A stretch of DNA of 64,000 bases from NCBI RefSeq assembly GCF_021654775.1, contig NZ_AP025343.1, positions 3,501,501 to 3,565,500 of the forward strand. Direction: 5' to 3'. Both the position numbers and the translations under genes were made by a program. Under the pieces are notes generated by a model. That model saw only the letters and a list, made by a program, of their open reading frames with translations, did no database searches and had not been told where the DNA came from. This DNA is from Paenibacillus azoreducens. Its GTDB lineage: Bacteria; Bacillota; Bacilli; Paenibacillales; Paenibacillaceae. Below are positions 3,913-9,640 of this stretch, piece by piece. Within the stretch, counting starts at the first letter, position 1, and the number at the start of each line of letters is the position of its first letter.

Positions 3913-3960
3913 AATTAGAATTGTTATGGACGCATAACAAAGAGTAAAGAGGTGTGCACC

Positions 3961-4335
3961 GTGAAACATGTTCAAAAATTATCGGACACGGAAATGGAAC
4001 TAATGGAGGTAATATGGGATTGTGAGCATCCAGTAACATCAACCGAATTATTGGGTATTTTCGCTCGTAAGGGTAAGGAATGGAAAGCACAAACGATCTC
4101 TACTTTTTTATCCCGGCTAGTTGAAAAAGGCGCTTTAATCGCTACGCGGCATGGCCGGACCAATTCCTATGTCCCCCGTCTTTCATCCGCAGACTACAAA
4201 CTATGGGAAACACAAAACGTATTAAACGGGTTGTACCAGGGTTCAGTAAAAAATTTGATTTCCGCGCTATATGATGGTGATAAGCTATCGGATGATGACA
4301 TTGCAGAACTGAAGCAATGGTTCTCGGAGAAGTAG
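3961..4335 (+). CDS. blaI: BlaI/MecI/CopY-family transcriptional repressor
   Basis: 124 residues, the normal family length. The N-terminal winged helix (LSDTEMELMEVIWDCEHPVTSTELLG..., TISTFLSRLVEKGAL) is typical of penicillinase repressors; the C-terminal part is the helical dimerisation and protease-cleavage region. The GTG at 3961 is chosen because AAAGAGG lies eight bases upstream, whereas an in-frame GTG three codons earlier would overlap that site. The downstream M56 peptidase gene starts nine bases after the stop. BlaI dimers would bind the three operators upstream and be inactivated by the partner peptidase when an envelope signal is sensed. No beta-lactamase gene is adjacent, so the regulated target is unknown. 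Confidence 0.93.
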   Translation: MKHVQKLSDTEMELMEVIWDCEHPVTSTELLGIFARKGKEWKAQTISTFLSRLVEKGALIATRHGRTNSYVPRLSSADYKLWETQNVLNGLYQGSVKNLISALYDGDKLSDDDIAELKQWFSEK

Positions 4336-4344
4336 GAGCTGCCT

Positions 4345-5805
4345 ATGGGACATTTTTTCGAACTGCTTGTCACGCTTACGATTGCGGGTAGTACCGTCGT
4401 AAGTTGTATACTGTTGCTGCGATTCTTTTCACCAACCATATTTCCTGCAAAATGGCGTTACGTAATTGGAAAAATGGCCGTATGGCTTTATTTATTGCCT
4501 GTGGCCTTTGTTTTGAAGAAGCTCATGGAGCTTTTTACTTCAAAACCGATTTTGACCGTTCTTACGCCCGGAATGGCCTCTGCGCCTGTTCAAGAAGTAT
4601 CGACTGAACGCATAACGGAGTGGGTTTCGGGACAGTCCATCTCCGCTGAAACGGCTTTGGTATTGTTGAGCTTATGGGGTGTTGGGGCTTTATCCTTTAT
4701 AAGTTGGCAGGTCTATTGTTACTACAGATTCATCAAAAGAATCCAAAGTACAAACGTGCCTGTGCCCAAGGATGGTGAAGAAGCCAAACAACTTGCTTCC
4801 AGGAAACAAGCGCTTGGGATAAATGGAACCGTACAGCTTGCATTTAACTCTAATGTCAGAAGCCCCGTTCTTGTCGGGTTGCTGAAACCAACCATATTGA
4901 TTCCCATGAGTAGTCAGGTGGATATGGACTTAGGCATGGTCATTCAACATGAACTTATTCACCTGAGACGAAAAGATTTATGGATAAAAATGCTCGTCGT
5001 GTGGATCAGCGCCTTACATTGGTTTAATCCCTTCGTTCACCTACTACGCAAGGACATCCATACATGGAGCGAGTTTTCCTGTGATGAAGAAGTCGTGAAA
5101 GAAATGTCTTATGCAGAACGGAAAAGATACGGTGAAACGATCCTGAACGTCATGATTGGTTCAAGGGGACTACCTGTCAGTTTTTGCTCTACTTTATCCG
5201 GTGACGGGAAACAATTGAAAAGGAGATTAATGATGATGCTTAATGTGAAAAAGCCGAAAAAGAAAACATTGTATCTTACGGTAACAGCTGTTTTTTTAGT
5301 TGCCGTAGCTAGCACATCAGCAGCGGTTTGGGCTTCCGGCAATGTACCCCCTGTAGCGGAGAGTAAAACTAACGATGCTGCAACTGCACCCCATGAGGAG
5401 AGTAAAACTAACGATGCTGCAACTGCACCCCATGAGGAGAGTAAAACTAACGATGCTGCAACTGCACCCCATGAGGAGAGTAAAACTAACGATGCTGCAA
5501 CTGCGCCCCATGAGGAGAGTAAAACTAACGATACTGCAACTGCGCCCCATGAGGAGAGTAAAACTAACGATGCTGCAACTGCGCCCCATGAGGAGAGTAA
5601 AACTAACGATGCTGCAACTGCACCCCATGAGGAGAGTAAAACTAACGATGCTGCAACTGCGCCCCATGAGGAGAGTAAAACTAACGATACTGCAACTGCA
5701 CCCCATGAGGAGAGTAAAACTAATGATGCTGCAACTGCACCCCATGAGAAGAGTAAAACTAACGATGCTGCAACTGCACCCTATGAAAATAAAACTAAGC
5801 GATGA
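4345..5805 (+). CDS. M56-family (BlaR1-like) membrane metallopeptidase with 11-fold repeat tail
   Basis: 486 residues. Predicted membrane helices lie near residues 5-28, 38-60, 103-125 and 312-330. The zinc motif H202-E-L-I-H is followed by LRRKDLWIKMLVVW and, further on, FSCDEEVV, the standard M56 layout. After the last helix BlaR1 normally carries a penicillin-binding sensor of about 250 residues; here there are instead about 11 copies of the 13-residue unit ESKTNDAATAPHE (residues 339-481) and a short basic end. The start has AGGAG six bases upstream and follows blaI directly. By family knowledge it should cleave, or trigger cleavage of, BlaI. The repeat tail may be a flexible cell-wall-spanning segment or a recent expansion; what signal it senses is open. 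Confidence 0.85.
   Translation: MGHFFELLVTLTIAGSTVVSCILLLRFFSPTIFPAKWRYVIGKMAVWLYLLPVAFVLKKLMELFTSKPILTVLTPGMASAPVQEVSTERITEWVSGQSISAETALVLLSLWGVGALSFISWQVYCYYRFIKRIQSTNVPVPKDGEEAKQLASRKQALGINGTVQLAFNSNVRSPVLVGLLKPTILIPMSSQVDMDLGMVIQHELIHLRRKDLWIKMLVVWISALHWFNPFVHLLRKDIHTWSEFSCDEEVVKEMSYAERKRYGETILNVMIGSRGLPVSFCSTLSGDGKQLKRRLMMMLNVKKPKKKTLYLTVTAVFLVAVASTSAAVWASGNVPPVAESKTNDAATAPHEESKTNDAATAPHEESKTNDAATAPHEESKTNDAATAPHEESKTNDTATAPHEESKTNDAATAPHEESKTNDAATAPHEESKTNDAATAPHEESKTNDTATAPHEESKTNDAATAPHEKSKTNDAATAPYENKTKR
5359..5787 (+). repeat. 39-bp tandem repeat, 11 units, inside the M56 gene
   Basis: Eleven direct 39-bp units encode 13 residues each with only a few base changes (GCTGCA or ACTGCA, GCACCC or GCGCCC, one AAC to AAT, the last unit slightly divergent). 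Because the unit is a multiple of three and lacks stops in all frames, long spurious open frames appear on both strands. The near-identity of units points to recent expansion by slippage or recombination, so copy number probably varies between strains. Confidence 0.97.
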
Positions 5806-6087: not shown

Positions 6088-6131
6088 AAAAAATAGAGCA
6101 AGGTGAGAGTTTGCACCTTTGCTCTATTTTT
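6088..6131. terminator. Bidirectional intrinsic terminator
   Basis: A 17-base stem (AAAAATAGAGCAAGGTG with CACCTTTGCTCTATTTTT) flanked by A and T runs lies directly at the 3' end of the minus-strand L7/L12-domain gene and also faces the plus-strand operon end. Confidence 0.85.
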
Positions 6132-6415
6132 CATTTGTACTGTTTCTCCATATTGTCGATAAAATCTTTTGCATCCTTTAAGCTCAAATGAGTTGCTACA
6201 CGCAATTCTTTAATGGCCTTAATCTTTTTTTCTTCGGCGATTAAATTTAACAATCTTGCTTGCAGCTCCGGACTCAGCTCGAGCGGTTCGCTATTCGTGC
6301 GCAGATCCTGACGACGATATGGATCAGCACCGTTCTCACGGCTTTTGGAGCGGAGCAGCAGCAGAATAATGATGAGCAGTAAGGTAATGATGAGCAAATA
6401 AATCGTTTCCATCAC
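6131..6415 (-). CDS. Small membrane-anchored protein with ribosomal L7/L12 C-terminal-like domain
   Basis: 94 residues. An N-terminal transmembrane helix (IYLLIITLLLIIILLLL) is followed by a charged linker and a C-terminal segment, KKIKAIKELRVATHLSLKDAKDFID, that copies the signature of the L7/L12 C-terminal domain ('K..VIK.VRE.T.LGLKEAKD.V'). In the ribosome this domain recruits translational GTPases; in membrane proteins its role is not known to me. The start may be the GTG at 6415 (SD spacing seven) or the ATG directly after it. It is divergent from an L11 paralog, and L11 and L7/L12 are both stalk proteins, which makes the neighbourhood interesting. Confidence 0.8.
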   Translation of the reverse strand: MMETIYLLIITLLLIIILLLLRSKSRENGADPYRRQDLRTNSEPLELSPELQARLLNLIAEEKKIKAIKELRVATHLSLKDAKDFIDNMEKQYK

Positions 6416-6593: not shown

Positions 6594-6632
6594 TTGAGGT
6601 TTACGCAACGTGATACTTTATACTTCACGTTG
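6594..6632 (+). promoter_or_regulatory. Candidate promoter with 19-bp spacer and dyad, upstream of L11 paralog
   Basis: TTGAGG at 6594-6599 and TATACT at 6619-6624 are separated by 19 bases, the extended spacing characteristic of MerR-activated promoters. An 8-bp inverted repeat (CAACGTGA, 11 bases, TCACGTTG) spans 6606-6632. The downstream operon encodes a MerR regulator, so autoregulation is likely. A TTTATA at 17-base spacing is an alternative -10. Confidence 0.5.
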
Positions 6633-6675
6633 TAAGGCGTTCAATACTCATAATCCAAGGTAAGGGTGAGAAAAT

Positions 6676-7104
6676 ATGGCCAAAAATAAAGAAGTTAAAC
6701 GAATCGTAAAACTGGAATTGGAAGCCGGAAAAGCGAATCCGGCAAGAGTAGGTAAGGATCTGGCGCCAACAGGTATAAATTTATTGCAGTTTTGTACGCA
6801 GTACAATGAAATGACCAAAGGCAAGCCGGGACTAGTGATCCCGGCCGAAATCAAGGTGTACGAAGATCGTTCGTTTGAAATTTTGTTGAAAACTCCGCCT
6901 GCTTCTTTCCTCCTGAAAAAGTTCGCCGGAGTAGATAAAGGTGCTGCAAAACCCGGAAGAATGGTAGTTGGCTCTATCACGCAGGAGCAACTTCGGCAAA
7001 TTGCGGAAATTAAATTGCCGGATCTGAACACGACCAGTCTAGAGAGCGCTATGAAAATTATCGCTGGTACGGCCAAAAATATGGGCATCCGTATCGATGG
7101 ATAA
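6676..7104 (+). CDS. Divergent ribosomal protein L11 paralog lacking thiopeptide-site prolines
   Basis: 142 residues, collinear with L11 over its full length: N-terminal domain (VKLELEAGKANPARVG..., INLLQFCTQYN, IPAEIKVYEDRSF, KTPPASFLLKK) and C-terminal RNA-binding domain (LRQIAEIKLPDLNTTSLESAMKIIAGTAKNMGI). In ordinary L11 the sequence after NP is x-P-P-V-G-P (E. coli P22, P23, P26). Here it reads A-R-V-G-K: one residue shorter, with the prolines at the positions of P22 and P26 gone. Substitutions at these prolines cause thiostrepton/micrococcin resistance. The gene stands alone, away from rplA and secE-nusG, and shares an operon with a MerR regulator. A second, housekeeping L11 is expected elsewhere. 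Likely a drug-insensitive replacement L11; not proven. Confidence 0.9.
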   Translation: MAKNKEVKRIVKLELEAGKANPARVGKDLAPTGINLLQFCTQYNEMTKGKPGLVIPAEIKVYEDRSFEILLKTPPASFLLKKFAGVDKGAAKPGRMVVGSITQEQLRQIAEIKLPDLNTTSLESAMKIIAGTAKNMGIRIDG

Positions 7105-7117
7105 AGGAGAGGTTTGG

Positions 7118-7552
7118 TTGGTTGAGGAGAATCAACTATTCACGACGCGTCAGTTGTCGGAATGGACAGGCGTTTCTGTCCGTAAGATCAGATGGTTCGA
7201 TAAAACACAATTATTGAAGCCTTACGAACGCAATTCATCGAACTATCGGTTGTACAGAAAACAGGAACTGATTACCTTGCTGATCATCATTTTCCTGCAG
7301 TTTTTCGGTTTTTCCTTTAAGGAAATTCGAACGATACTGAAATCCCCCTCGTTTGACGCGGCCGAAGTCCTGGCTGTCCAAGCCCGTGTAATAGATCGCG
7401 GGATTGATCAATTAATCGATGTGTCCGGTATTTTGAACTGTATCTCCTCATCAATTAACAAAAGTCAGCCGGTGGACATCGCAGAAATCGCAAAGCCATT
7501 CGCAATTATTACTGAATACGATCCGAAAAGTTGGTTTAAGCTGTTCGTTTGA
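7118..7552 (+). CDS. MerR-family transcriptional regulator
   Basis: 144 residues from a TTG start at 7118, chosen because AAAGGAG ends eight bases upstream; an in-frame ATG at 7097 lacks a binding site and overlaps the L11 paralog. The N-terminus is a MerR winged helix (FTTRQLSEWTGVSVRKIRWFDKTQLLKP..., NYRLYRKQELITLLIIIFLQFFGFSFKEI). A coiled-coil linker and a short C-terminal region follow; the effector part is too small to be a TipA-type thiopeptide-binding domain. The SD overlaps the stop of the L11 paralog, so the two are co-transcribed, and the candidate MerR-type promoter lies upstream of both. Effector unknown. Confidence 0.88.
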   Translation: MVEENQLFTTRQLSEWTGVSVRKIRWFDKTQLLKPYERNSSNYRLYRKQELITLLIIIFLQFFGFSFKEIRTILKSPSFDAAEVLAVQARVIDRGIDQLIDVSGILNCISSSINKSQPVDIAEIAKPFAIITEYDPKSWFKLFV

Positions 7553-7815: not shown

Positions 7816-9609
7816 TTATGGTGTTATTGGATCGGTTTCAAAGATTTTAATCTCACTTGCAGATGCAAAACCATTTGTTCCACCACCTTGAGGTACTTCA
7901 AGTCGAACATATTTAGCAAGAGTAGGTGTAAAAGTTGCTGTCTTTTCTGTATTGTCCTTTGCCCAAGTACCTGTAGCAACCTCATTGAAGGATACCCCAT
8001 CAAGACTAGTTAGGATTCTATAATTTGTAATAATGCCATTTTCTCCACTTTGTCGTGGTAGATAGGTTAGTTTGGTGAATGTTGAGGGATTTAGGTACTT
8101 TGCTGTAATATTGTAAGGAAACTGATTTGGTTTACTCCATTCACTGTGCCACATAGTATTTGTATCTCCGTCAAATGCATATGCTGCGGCATTATTACTA
8201 CTTGATGTCTCTTCGCTATTTGTTGTTGCAGCAATGATACCCCCAATACCTTTTACCGTATCCATTCCATCAGTCGGTTTAATGATGTTATAGTCTGACC
8301 CAAACCAGATTGGTGCAGTTAGAAGAGGTAAATTCAATGATTTAATCTTGTTTCGTGTTTCTTCTGTTGCAGTCAAACCCCATTTATCAAAGAAAGGCGT
8401 CAAGTCATAGTGAGCTACTTTTGAAGTGCTTAGAATAAATGCCTGTTTTTTCTGATCATCAGTAGTTGGCAGATCAGCTTCTGCCATCTCACGATATAAT
8501 CGATGTAACTCTGGGTAGAAGTTATCCCCAAAAGCAAGATTAAGTTGCCACAACATTTCTAATTTTGAATTAGAGTCTGCAAAATTCTTGGTTGGCTGAT
8601 CTACAAACGTGAAAGCAGCTAAGTACTCGCCTTGTGACCTTGCAGGTTCAGTAGGTTTAAGAACCTTCTTAGCGGCTATAGAATATATATTTACATTCAC
8701 CTCGGTCATCCCATCCCAATTCCAAGGTGCTTGTTGTCTCAAATGACCTGCCTCATGATACTGCCCCCAACCCGTTCTTGTAAGGTCTAAAGTATCGGCA
8801 CTTGCTCCAGTATCTTTAGGCATAATTGCCCCATCCCAATTTGCATATGCGTACGCTCCTGGTATGGTGTTTTCTGATTCAACAAAGCCAATCAAATGCT
8901 TATCTAACCGATGTCTAGGATCAGAATCAGAACTAGATAGTCCAGATATTTGATCCTGTGCTGTAATAAACTTATCATAAGTCTGTAAAACAGGAATTGG
9001 GTCTTGATTCAAGATATGATCTTTAGCAGTAGCATAATAGAAGACAAAGAGAGCTCTTTCTGATTGAAGAACAACAGAAGGTGCATTAGGATAAGCATTC
9101 ATCATTGCCTGCCAATCCTCTTTTGTATTCTTGCCTAATACAAAGAATGGAACCGGACTCCCCCCACTCACTACATTTACATTAATACTACCTTCATTGT
9201 TGCTGTTATCAAAAAACAACAAACCGCCATTTGGTGAGGAAATTGTGTTTTTACCTGCTTTTAATGGATAACTAATCGCCCACTCTTTATCATGACGATG
9301 TACCCCAATAACCGCTGTAATTGGTTTGTTACCTGAGACTACAATCTCAATTTGTTCATTGGCTTTTGCATATAAACCTGTTGGCTGATATATTTTTCGA
9401 GCATTTATGAATCTACGCTCTCGCTCGCCTTCCGCCCATATATCTCCAAGCGCTTTTACTTTAAAATTTCGCTGAACAACAAGGTTACTTTGCTGTGTAA
9501 TGGCTGTCTCTGAAGTTTGGGCTAGTACCCCGGATGGCGGGACAACTACTACAACTGCTGTTACCACCATTAGAGATAAAACCTGAAGTGACTTCTTAAG
9601 TTTTCTCAT
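7816..9609 (-). CDS. Secreted M60-family (mucinase-type) zinc metallopeptidase with F5/8 type C domain
   Basis: About 597 residues. A signal peptide (RKLKKSLQV, hydrophobic core, VLAQ cleavage site) starts the protein at the ATG at 9609, five bases after AGGAGG; the ATG just before it is only two bases from the SD. The middle part carries the M60/enhancin gluzincin motif: GQYHEAGHLRQQ at about residues 285-289 followed by W-D-G-M-T-E-V-N-V-N, matching HExxH...E. The C-terminal 140 residues (EETSSSNNAAAYAFDGDTNT.WHSEW, YVRLEV, FASASEIKIFE) form a galactose-binding F5/8 type C (CBM32-like) domain. M60 enzymes cleave mucin-type O-glycoproteins. Codon use looks more AT-rich than the neighbours, hinting at separate acquisition. 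Confidence 0.92.
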   Translation of the reverse strand: MRKLKKSLQVLSLMVVTAVVVVVPPSGVLAQTSETAITQQSNLVVQRNFKVKALGDIWAEGERERRFINARKIYQPTGLYAKANEQIEIVVSGNKPITAVIGVHRHDKEWAISYPLKAGKNTISSPNGGLLFFDNSNNEGSINVNVVSGGSPVPFFVLGKNTKEDWQAMMNAYPNAPSVVLQSERALFVFYYATAKDHILNQDPIPVLQTYDKFITAQDQISGLSSSDSDPRHRLDKHLIGFVESENTIPGAYAYANWDGAIMPKDTGASADTLDLTRTGWGQYHEAGHLRQQAPWNWDGMTEVNVNIYSIAAKKVLKPTEPARSQGEYLAAFTFVDQPTKNFADSNSKLEMLWQLNLAFGDNFYPELHRLYREMAEADLPTTDDQKKQAFILSTSKVAHYDLTPFFDKWGLTATEETRNKIKSLNLPLLTAPIWFGSDYNIIKPTDGMDTVKGIGGIIAATTNSEETSSSNNAAAYAFDGDTNTMWHSEWSKPNQFPYNITAKYLNPSTFTKLTYLPRQSGENGIITNYRILTSLDGVSFNEVATGTWAKDNTEKTATFTPTLAKYVRLEVPQGGGTNGFASASEIKIFETDPITP

Positions 9610-9640
9610 CATATCCTCCTAAAAAATAGATTTATGCATA

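Follow-up and report, generated by a model that had tools for sequence, protein, structure and literature searches.

A proline-deleted paralog of ribosomal protein L11 behind a TipA-class promoter in Paenibacillus azoreducens: a candidate for ribosome protection by L11 exchange

Introduction

Why does a bacterium with an ordinary gene for ribosomal protein L11 carry a second one, whose thiopeptide-contact loop is rebuilt and whose promoter is of the kind that drug sensors use? The question is raised by a locus of Paenibacillus azoreducens (assembly GCF_021654775.1, here G000, one contig of 7.3 Mb) at which a gene for an L11 paralog runs into that of a short MerR regulator. Both lie in the stretch of DNA that was analysed, positions 3,501,501-3,565,500 of NZ_AP025343.1 (64,000 nucleotides), which we call the window. 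Labels beginning with G, L and P denote compared genomes, fetched loci and protein clusters, respectively. Outside producers, the known routes to thiopeptide resistance are sequestration or efflux of the drug, 23S methylation and point mutation of rplK; to our knowledge the L11 paralogs described so far sit in producer clusters. The comparisons reported here, which are of sequences, indicate that the paralog is probably a replacement L11, switched on by a regulator of the TipA class, with which ribosomes would keep translating in the presence of a thiopeptide.

The L11 paralog and its altered loop

The paralog passes the cut-offs of both L11 Pfam families over its full length (PF03946, 65.5 bits; PF00298, 96.1 bits) and that of TIGR01632 (181.8 bits against 141.85), and its RNA-binding domain is complete, with PF00298 matched over positions 1-69 of 69. 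Two L11 matches were found in G000, the other being the housekeeping rplK at G000:C1:6671642-6672055 on the minus strand, which lies within nusG-rplK-rplA-rplJ-rplL and has the ordinary loop PAPPVGPALGQ. In the alignment of the two proteins, KANPAPPVGPALGQA becomes KANPA-RVGKDLAPT; of the two prolines P22/P23 one is missing and an arginine stands for the other, and P26 is a lysine. An initial annotation of the window had described the gene as an L11 paralog that lacks the prolines at P22, P23 and P26 and is one residue shorter there; the family scores and the alignment bear this out, and with a housekeeping rplK present the paralog is not the sole L11 of the genome. The two proteins also differ after the FC motif, where the paralog has a threonine (FCTQYN) and the housekeeping protein a lysine (FCKEFN) that we take to be the PrmA methylation site. 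The predicted structure of the paralog has a mean predicted local distance difference test score (pLDDT) of 88.4, with a helix at residues 22-32, at the altered loop.

Thiopeptides whose ring has 26 members have their binding site between L11 and 23S rRNA (excerpt of PMC3917276). Of two isolates that were less sensitive to micrococcin P1 (and nisin), one had rplK P26S and the other an insertion adjacent to the loop, and no further differences were found (PMC12285270). A substitution at P26 alone has to be read with care, since PAPPVGTVLGPA is found in 42 of 106 L11 genes extracted from the fetched loci (two of the 106 being paralogs, and the set being biased by similarity to the paralog). These 42 have the P26T of TclQ, the L11 paralog of a thiopeptide cluster discussed below; P26T is thus widespread among these genes and is weak evidence of resistance.

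The same features bear on whether the paralog could work outside ribosomes, as a decoy that binds drug or free rRNA. TipAS, the sensor domain of TipA, itself acts through sequestration (excerpt of PMC7762955), but the paralog has kept its whole rRNA-binding domain and has lost the drug-contact prolines, which a drug trap would have to retain, and we consider a decoy very improbable.

A clade with a deleted proline and its occurrence

A search of 5.8 billion proteins, of which the 120 best matches were taken, returned 54 clusters with the deletion (P0001-P0054) followed by ordinary L11s with PAPP[VI]G (P0055-P0120), and a second, alignment-based search added P0122-P0126, P0130 and P0133, which gives at least 61 paralog clusters, many of them on short metagenome contigs. 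The deletion at P22/P23 is present in all 61 seen. The residue left at that place is lysine or arginine in 56 of them and M, T, H or I in the rest, and P26 is replaced by lysine in 50 and by arginine in 11. Named members come from Paenibacillus, Bacillus horti, Siminovitchia, Ornithinibacillus, Evansella, Paraliobacillus, Kroppenstedtia, Desmospora, Planifilum, Shouchella and Virgibacillus. Such genes, annotated at source merely as '50S ribosomal protein L11', can be recognised by a sequence mark that typically reads ANPA-[KR]VGKDLAP.

TclQ and TclT are L11 paralogs of the thiocillin and micrococcin P1 clusters that have been proposed to replace the native L11 (excerpts of PMC12724294 and PMC10704990). 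A tree of 63 rows places the 27 sampled paralogs of the window's kind on one branch (support 100/99) apart from all ordinary L11s sampled, and two TclQ rows lie elsewhere; with the loop columns removed, the paralogs and the two TclQ rows are still apart (97 in the Shimodaira-Hasegawa-like approximate likelihood ratio test, SH-aLRT). Paenibacillus rows are scattered inside the clade: the window's protein stands with P0002 and P0003 (93/77, a branch not starred), that of G177 (P0009) with Bacillus horti (99/86) and P0012 with Kroppenstedtia, Siminovitchia and others (97/81).

The paralog is rare. In overlapping samples it was found in 2 of 100 genomes of the genus (to which G061 also belongs), in 394 genomes of the family as three intact copies and a broken one, in 6 of 398 genomes of the class (its own included) and in 1 of 398 of the phylum (its own). 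It was met in 2 of 10 genomes of the family of G661 and 1 of 5 of the order of G431, all three counted already in the other samples, and in none of 219 genomes of the order of G483, a set without a positive control. Among plasmids, 78 records matched, all below 60% identity and with no close relative of the paralog; the best match was a tclQ gene. A profile scan of genome contigs, which used stretches common to L11s, kept 80 loci, mostly ordinary rplK, and among the L11s that could be extracted from them one (L034) has the paralog loop. Together, the scattered Paenibacillus rows and the patchy occurrence suggest that the clade spread by transfer or was lost many times. In the sole pair with a synonymous divergence (dS) below 1, G613-G505, the ratio of nonsynonymous to synonymous divergence (dN/dS) is 0.12, in keeping with purifying selection; other pairs are mostly saturated. 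In G367 (L158) a decayed paralog precedes a degraded stretch that by eye looks MerR-like, an arrangement that matches the window.

The promoter of the paralog genes

Operators of TipA-class regulators share the pattern TTG-N4-T-N-ACG-N3-CGT-N-A, and the full pattern adds a -10 element at a 19-bp spacer. The operator pattern occurs in the window at 6594-6613, with 0.01 chance matches expected in 64 kb. Promoters were read at nine intact loci (the window, G061, G177, G431, G661, G613, G505, G429 and L034), the broken copy of G367 not being counted. All but L034 carry the exact full pattern with its 19-bp spacer, 60-82 bp upstream of the start codon, and L034 has it with one mismatch, 65 bp upstream, which makes nine of nine intact paralogs with a TipA-class promoter; the free positions of the site vary among the loci. 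The broken paralog of G367 has no promoter site, and no exact site was found upstream of the other L11 genes in the fetched loci (0 of 128) or of tclQ genes (0 of 2). The MerR-type 19-bp spacer and the dyad that had been proposed for this promoter are both real, the dyad being read directly from the sequence as the inverted repeat CAACGTGA/TCACGTTG (Table 1). A generic sigma-70 scan, which allows spacers of 16-18 nt only, did not return this promoter with its 19-bp spacer.

Genome-wide, sites were counted in 23 hand-picked genomes, 9 with a paralog, which is broken in one of the nine, and 14 lacking it. There are 0-7 sites per genome and 69 in total, whereas the reversed pattern was met once. 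In G505 and in G429 the sole exact site is the paralog promoter, and G661 has two sites only, before its MerR-TipAS gene and before the paralog. The site also precedes TipAS genes of G000 (L163), G061, G177 and G367. By eye, another site of G000 (L200) lies before a MerR gene without TipAS, after which comes a gene resembling those of membrane proteins; at L201 and L202 the site precedes uncharacterised genes and at L203 a hydrolase-like gene. As sites also precede genes other than those for TipAS proteins, the site class, judged from these sequences, is that of a MerR subclass of which TipA forms part and is not exclusive to TipAS targets.

Two alternatives can be weighed here. The paralog might be a stress L11, a variant that tunes the coupling of EF-G, release factors or RelA under general drug or stress signals and blocks no drug site. 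L11 belongs to the GTPase centre and takes part in activating RelA, and the threonine at the presumed PrmA site would agree with such a role, but the uniform change sits at the drug-contact loop and the founder of the promoter class is induced by thiostrepton, so that we regard this as improbable. Alternatively, the paralog might be a decaying duplicate that has no function, or its pairing with the regulator might be due to chance, as the patchy distribution and the decayed copy of G367 would allow. Against this stand nine intact loci, a clade, promoter and loop that are conserved and the purifying selection in the one usable pair, which make it extremely improbable.

Regulators beside the paralogs

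The TipAS domain (PF07739) adjoins the paralog in five of the nine genomes searched (G367 included, L034 not). In G431 and G661 about 75-93 bp separate the paralog from an upstream MerR-TipAS gene, which has a TipA-class promoter of its own and scores 128 and 129 bits, respectively, for TipAS; in G429, G505 and G613 a MerR-TipAS gene follows about 23-51 bp downstream; four of the five proteins were scanned separately and all are above the cut-off. In G061, G177, G367 and G000 TipAS genes are found elsewhere in the genome, two of them in G000. The G661 regulator aligns over its full length to structures of the TipA class (SkgA, MtaN, TipA), and its C-terminal part to the TipAS entries 1ny9 and 2mbz/2mc0, the latter two of which we take to be thiopeptide complexes.

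The MerR protein of the window, whose start overlaps the paralog's stop by 8 bp, shares 29-36% identity with these MerR-TipAS neighbours over the helix-turn-helix (HTH) and coiled coil, and 30% over 116 amino acids with TclU. Its best three relatives in the PDB are 1jbg, 7cla and 3qao, with 2vz4 fifth; MtaN, SkgA and 3qao are thus closest and TipA is fifth. It had been called not TipA-like, which holds for the C-terminus, where TipAS is lacking, but not for the remainder, as MtaN, SkgA and TipA are among its five best structural relatives. Its relatives in the 5.8 billion proteins, among 14 candidates, came down to itself only, so that an L11-MerR pair with this particular regulator is not conserved; what is conserved is the class of promoter. 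TipAN and MtaN, forms without TipAS, are reported to be constitutively active (PMC7762955, excerpt). By analogy with such forms, the locus of the window may be always on, or expression of its paralog may depend in trans on the two TipAS proteins of G000.

The thiopeptide-type cluster of the strain

That no thiopeptide biosynthesis genes are near, as the initial annotation had it, is correct locally: no YcaO match was found in the window, and the YcaO genes of G000 lie at 0.88, 3.06, 3.07 and 3.58 Mb, with the paralog at 3.51 Mb. The nearest is about 69 kb away in a cluster (L159:9239-14778) about 10 kb past the window end, whose ocin_ThiF_like and SagB proteins point to a cluster of another kind. 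A further YcaO cluster (L161:6442-11909) includes a polyprenyl synthetase and a protein that matches TbtD weakly. The statement does not hold for the chromosome, which carries, about 440 kb from the paralog, a thiopeptide-type cluster with a precursor (L160, G000:C1:3056000-3075900, genes at about 3.058-3.075 Mb).

The paralog might therefore shield ribosomes in this strain from what its own cluster makes, the HTH-only MerR keeping the gene on. The precursor peptide (L160:1592-1762) scores 27.9 bits with TIGR03892 (cut-off 25), and the cluster also encodes a protein with a LanB N-terminal domain, a thiopep_ocin protein, two YcaO and two SagB-type proteins and a TbtD-like pyridine synthase (68.8 bits, far under the equivalog cut-off of 325). 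The closest homologue of this synthase outside G000, among 388 genomes of the family, has 43% identity, so that cluster and paralog are both rare and co-occur in G000. TclU, the regulator of the micrococcin P1 cluster, is likewise an HTH-only MerR. However, the paralog is distant from the cluster, the match in L160 to another precursor model, NF033400, does not reach the threshold (26.6 against 30), and of the 17 of 388 family genomes with pyridine-synthase-like genes only G000 has a paralog, the other 16 having none. G061 and G177 are not among the pyridine-synthase matches, although it is not established that they or G367 are included in the 388. There is no YcaO gene in G505, G613 or G367, and since the paralogs of G505 and G613 are intact, its function is not tied to thiopeptide production. 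Immunity to the strain's own product, a special case whose probability overlaps with that of replacement under a thiopeptide in general, is on this evidence rather unlikely, though well worth considering. The role across the family is thus not producer immunity alone, whereas in G000 it may be immunity.

Surroundings of the locus

The elements of the locus are listed in Table 1. Next to the paralog, at 6131-6415 on the minus strand, is a gene for a small membrane-anchored protein with a partial L7/L12 C-terminal domain (PF00542, positions 8-40 of 67, 31.8 bits, cut-off 25.9), which was weighed as a candidate partner for L11. No neighbour of this type was noticed beside paralogs elsewhere in lists of open reading frames (ORFs), in which no search aimed at one was made. 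A BlaI-type repressor gene (3952-4335) precedes that of a BlaR1-type M56 peptidase (4345-5805, plus strand) with tandem copies of about 13 residues (ESKTNDAATAPHE) close to its C-terminus, and a gene on the minus strand at 7816-9612 encodes an enhancin-like M60 peptidase with an F5/8 type C domain.

Table 1. Positions of the features of the L11 paralog locus within the window.
Feature	Position	Strand	Details and basis
TipA-class MerR promoter/operator	6594..6624	+	-35 TTGAGG 6594-6599; 19-bp spacer with TTACG-CAA-CGTGA; -10 TATACT 6619-6624
Second, longer inverted repeat, CAACGTGA-11-TCACGTTG, overlapping the -10	6606..6632 (arms 6606-6613, 6625-6632)	.	Direct sequence reading
L11 paralog, 142 aa, proline-deleted clade	6676..7104	+	ORF, Pfam/NCBIfam, alignment, tree
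Altered thiopeptide-contact loop, ANPA-RVGKDLAP vs ANPAPPVGPALGQ	6733..6768	+	Alignment
Short MerR regulator, 151 aa, HTH + coiled coil, without TipAS domain	7097..7552	+	ORF, domain scan, alignment, PDB relatives

Discussion

A complete RNA-binding domain, a rebuilt drug-contact loop and a promoter class that thiostrepton induces are together best read as the marks of a replacement part for the ribosome. The C-terminal domain of the variant would still fit helices 43/44 of 23S rRNA, and its N-terminal loop would no longer present the prolines touched by 26-membered thiopeptides. On sensing a thiopeptide, a TipA-class regulator of the MerR/TipAS type would activate the paralog gene, and ribosomes with the variant L11 would continue translation, the housekeeping rplK serving normal growth. 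The paralogs form a clade with a common loop change, the genome has a second rplK, the promoter is of the TipA class and five relatives have TipAS neighbours; from this we infer that the variant would be incorporated into the 50S subunit and give resistance, and that the acting regulator would be a TipA-class protein. The initial annotation had proposed an inducible replacement L11 for thiopeptide tolerance, and its proposal gains from the promoter at all nine intact loci and from the MerR-TipAS neighbours, and loses where inducibility in the window is concerned, as the local MerR has no sensor domain.

Several observations weigh against this reading. The MerR of the window is HTH-only, with no PF07739 in the protein or at that place in the genome, the TipAS domains beside the paralogs of G429, G505 and G613 have diverged, scoring 61, 38-41 and 40 bits, respectively, and no regulator was noticed beside the intact paralogs of G061, G177 and L034 when their ORFs were read by eye. 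The promoter site is present at least once in 13 of the 14 genomes without a paralog, four of the six sites in G000 precede neither the paralog nor a TipAS gene, and the promoters may share descent, in which case nine of nine are not nine independent events. With the loop columns removed, no starred branch of the tree divides the paralogs from every other L11. TipA-class proteins serve other drugs too, for example albicidin for AlbA, and the review PMC3917276 cites L11 mutations that did not prevent thiostrepton binding.

The proline-deleted clade is distinct from TclQ in loop, ancestry, setting and promoter, although the two are alike in that a second L11 is altered at the thiopeptide loop and, in the micrococcin P1 cluster as far as excerpts describe it, accompanied by the short MerR TclU. 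In the two TclQ proteins read, the loop is of full length, with both P22 and P23 (PAPPVG) and a threonine at P26, whereas the clade has a deletion at P22/P23; TclQ stands elsewhere in the L11 tree and within a biosynthetic cluster, whereas the paralog lies outside such a cluster, and the tclQ upstream regions lack the exact TipA-class promoter that paralogs have. With TipA-class regulators (TipAL of Streptomyces lividans, Mta, SkgA) the locus shares the promoter architecture; its MerR has an HTH close to those of TipA, Mta and SkgA and differs from them in the absence of TipAS. Zinc-responsive alternative ribosomal proteins such as L31 and L36, in the excerpted literature, are likewise regulated paralogs that are assumed to stand in for the usual protein of the ribosome, but they are other proteins and answer to zinc, whereas the paralog here has a promoter of drug-sensor type. 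The component parts are thus known already; among the matches listed from open-access full text, a scope that leaves subscription journals mostly outside, there is no report of the arrangement, an L11 gene under TipA-class control.

We tentatively propose, at somewhat less than even odds, that the paralog and its promoter belong to a horizontally moving, stand-alone cassette of Bacilli in which a TipA-class sensor orders the exchange of L11, and that the switch of the window has become constitutive or self-sustaining, which would fit a thiopeptide-type product of the strain's own. If L11 exchange is true, ribosomal protein exchange under the control of a drug sensor would be a case of regulated ribosome heterogeneity with a clear purpose, and a target-replacement gene would be placed under TipA/Mta-type control in Bacilli. 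The role of TipA-class sensors in non-producing Bacilli would then become directly testable.
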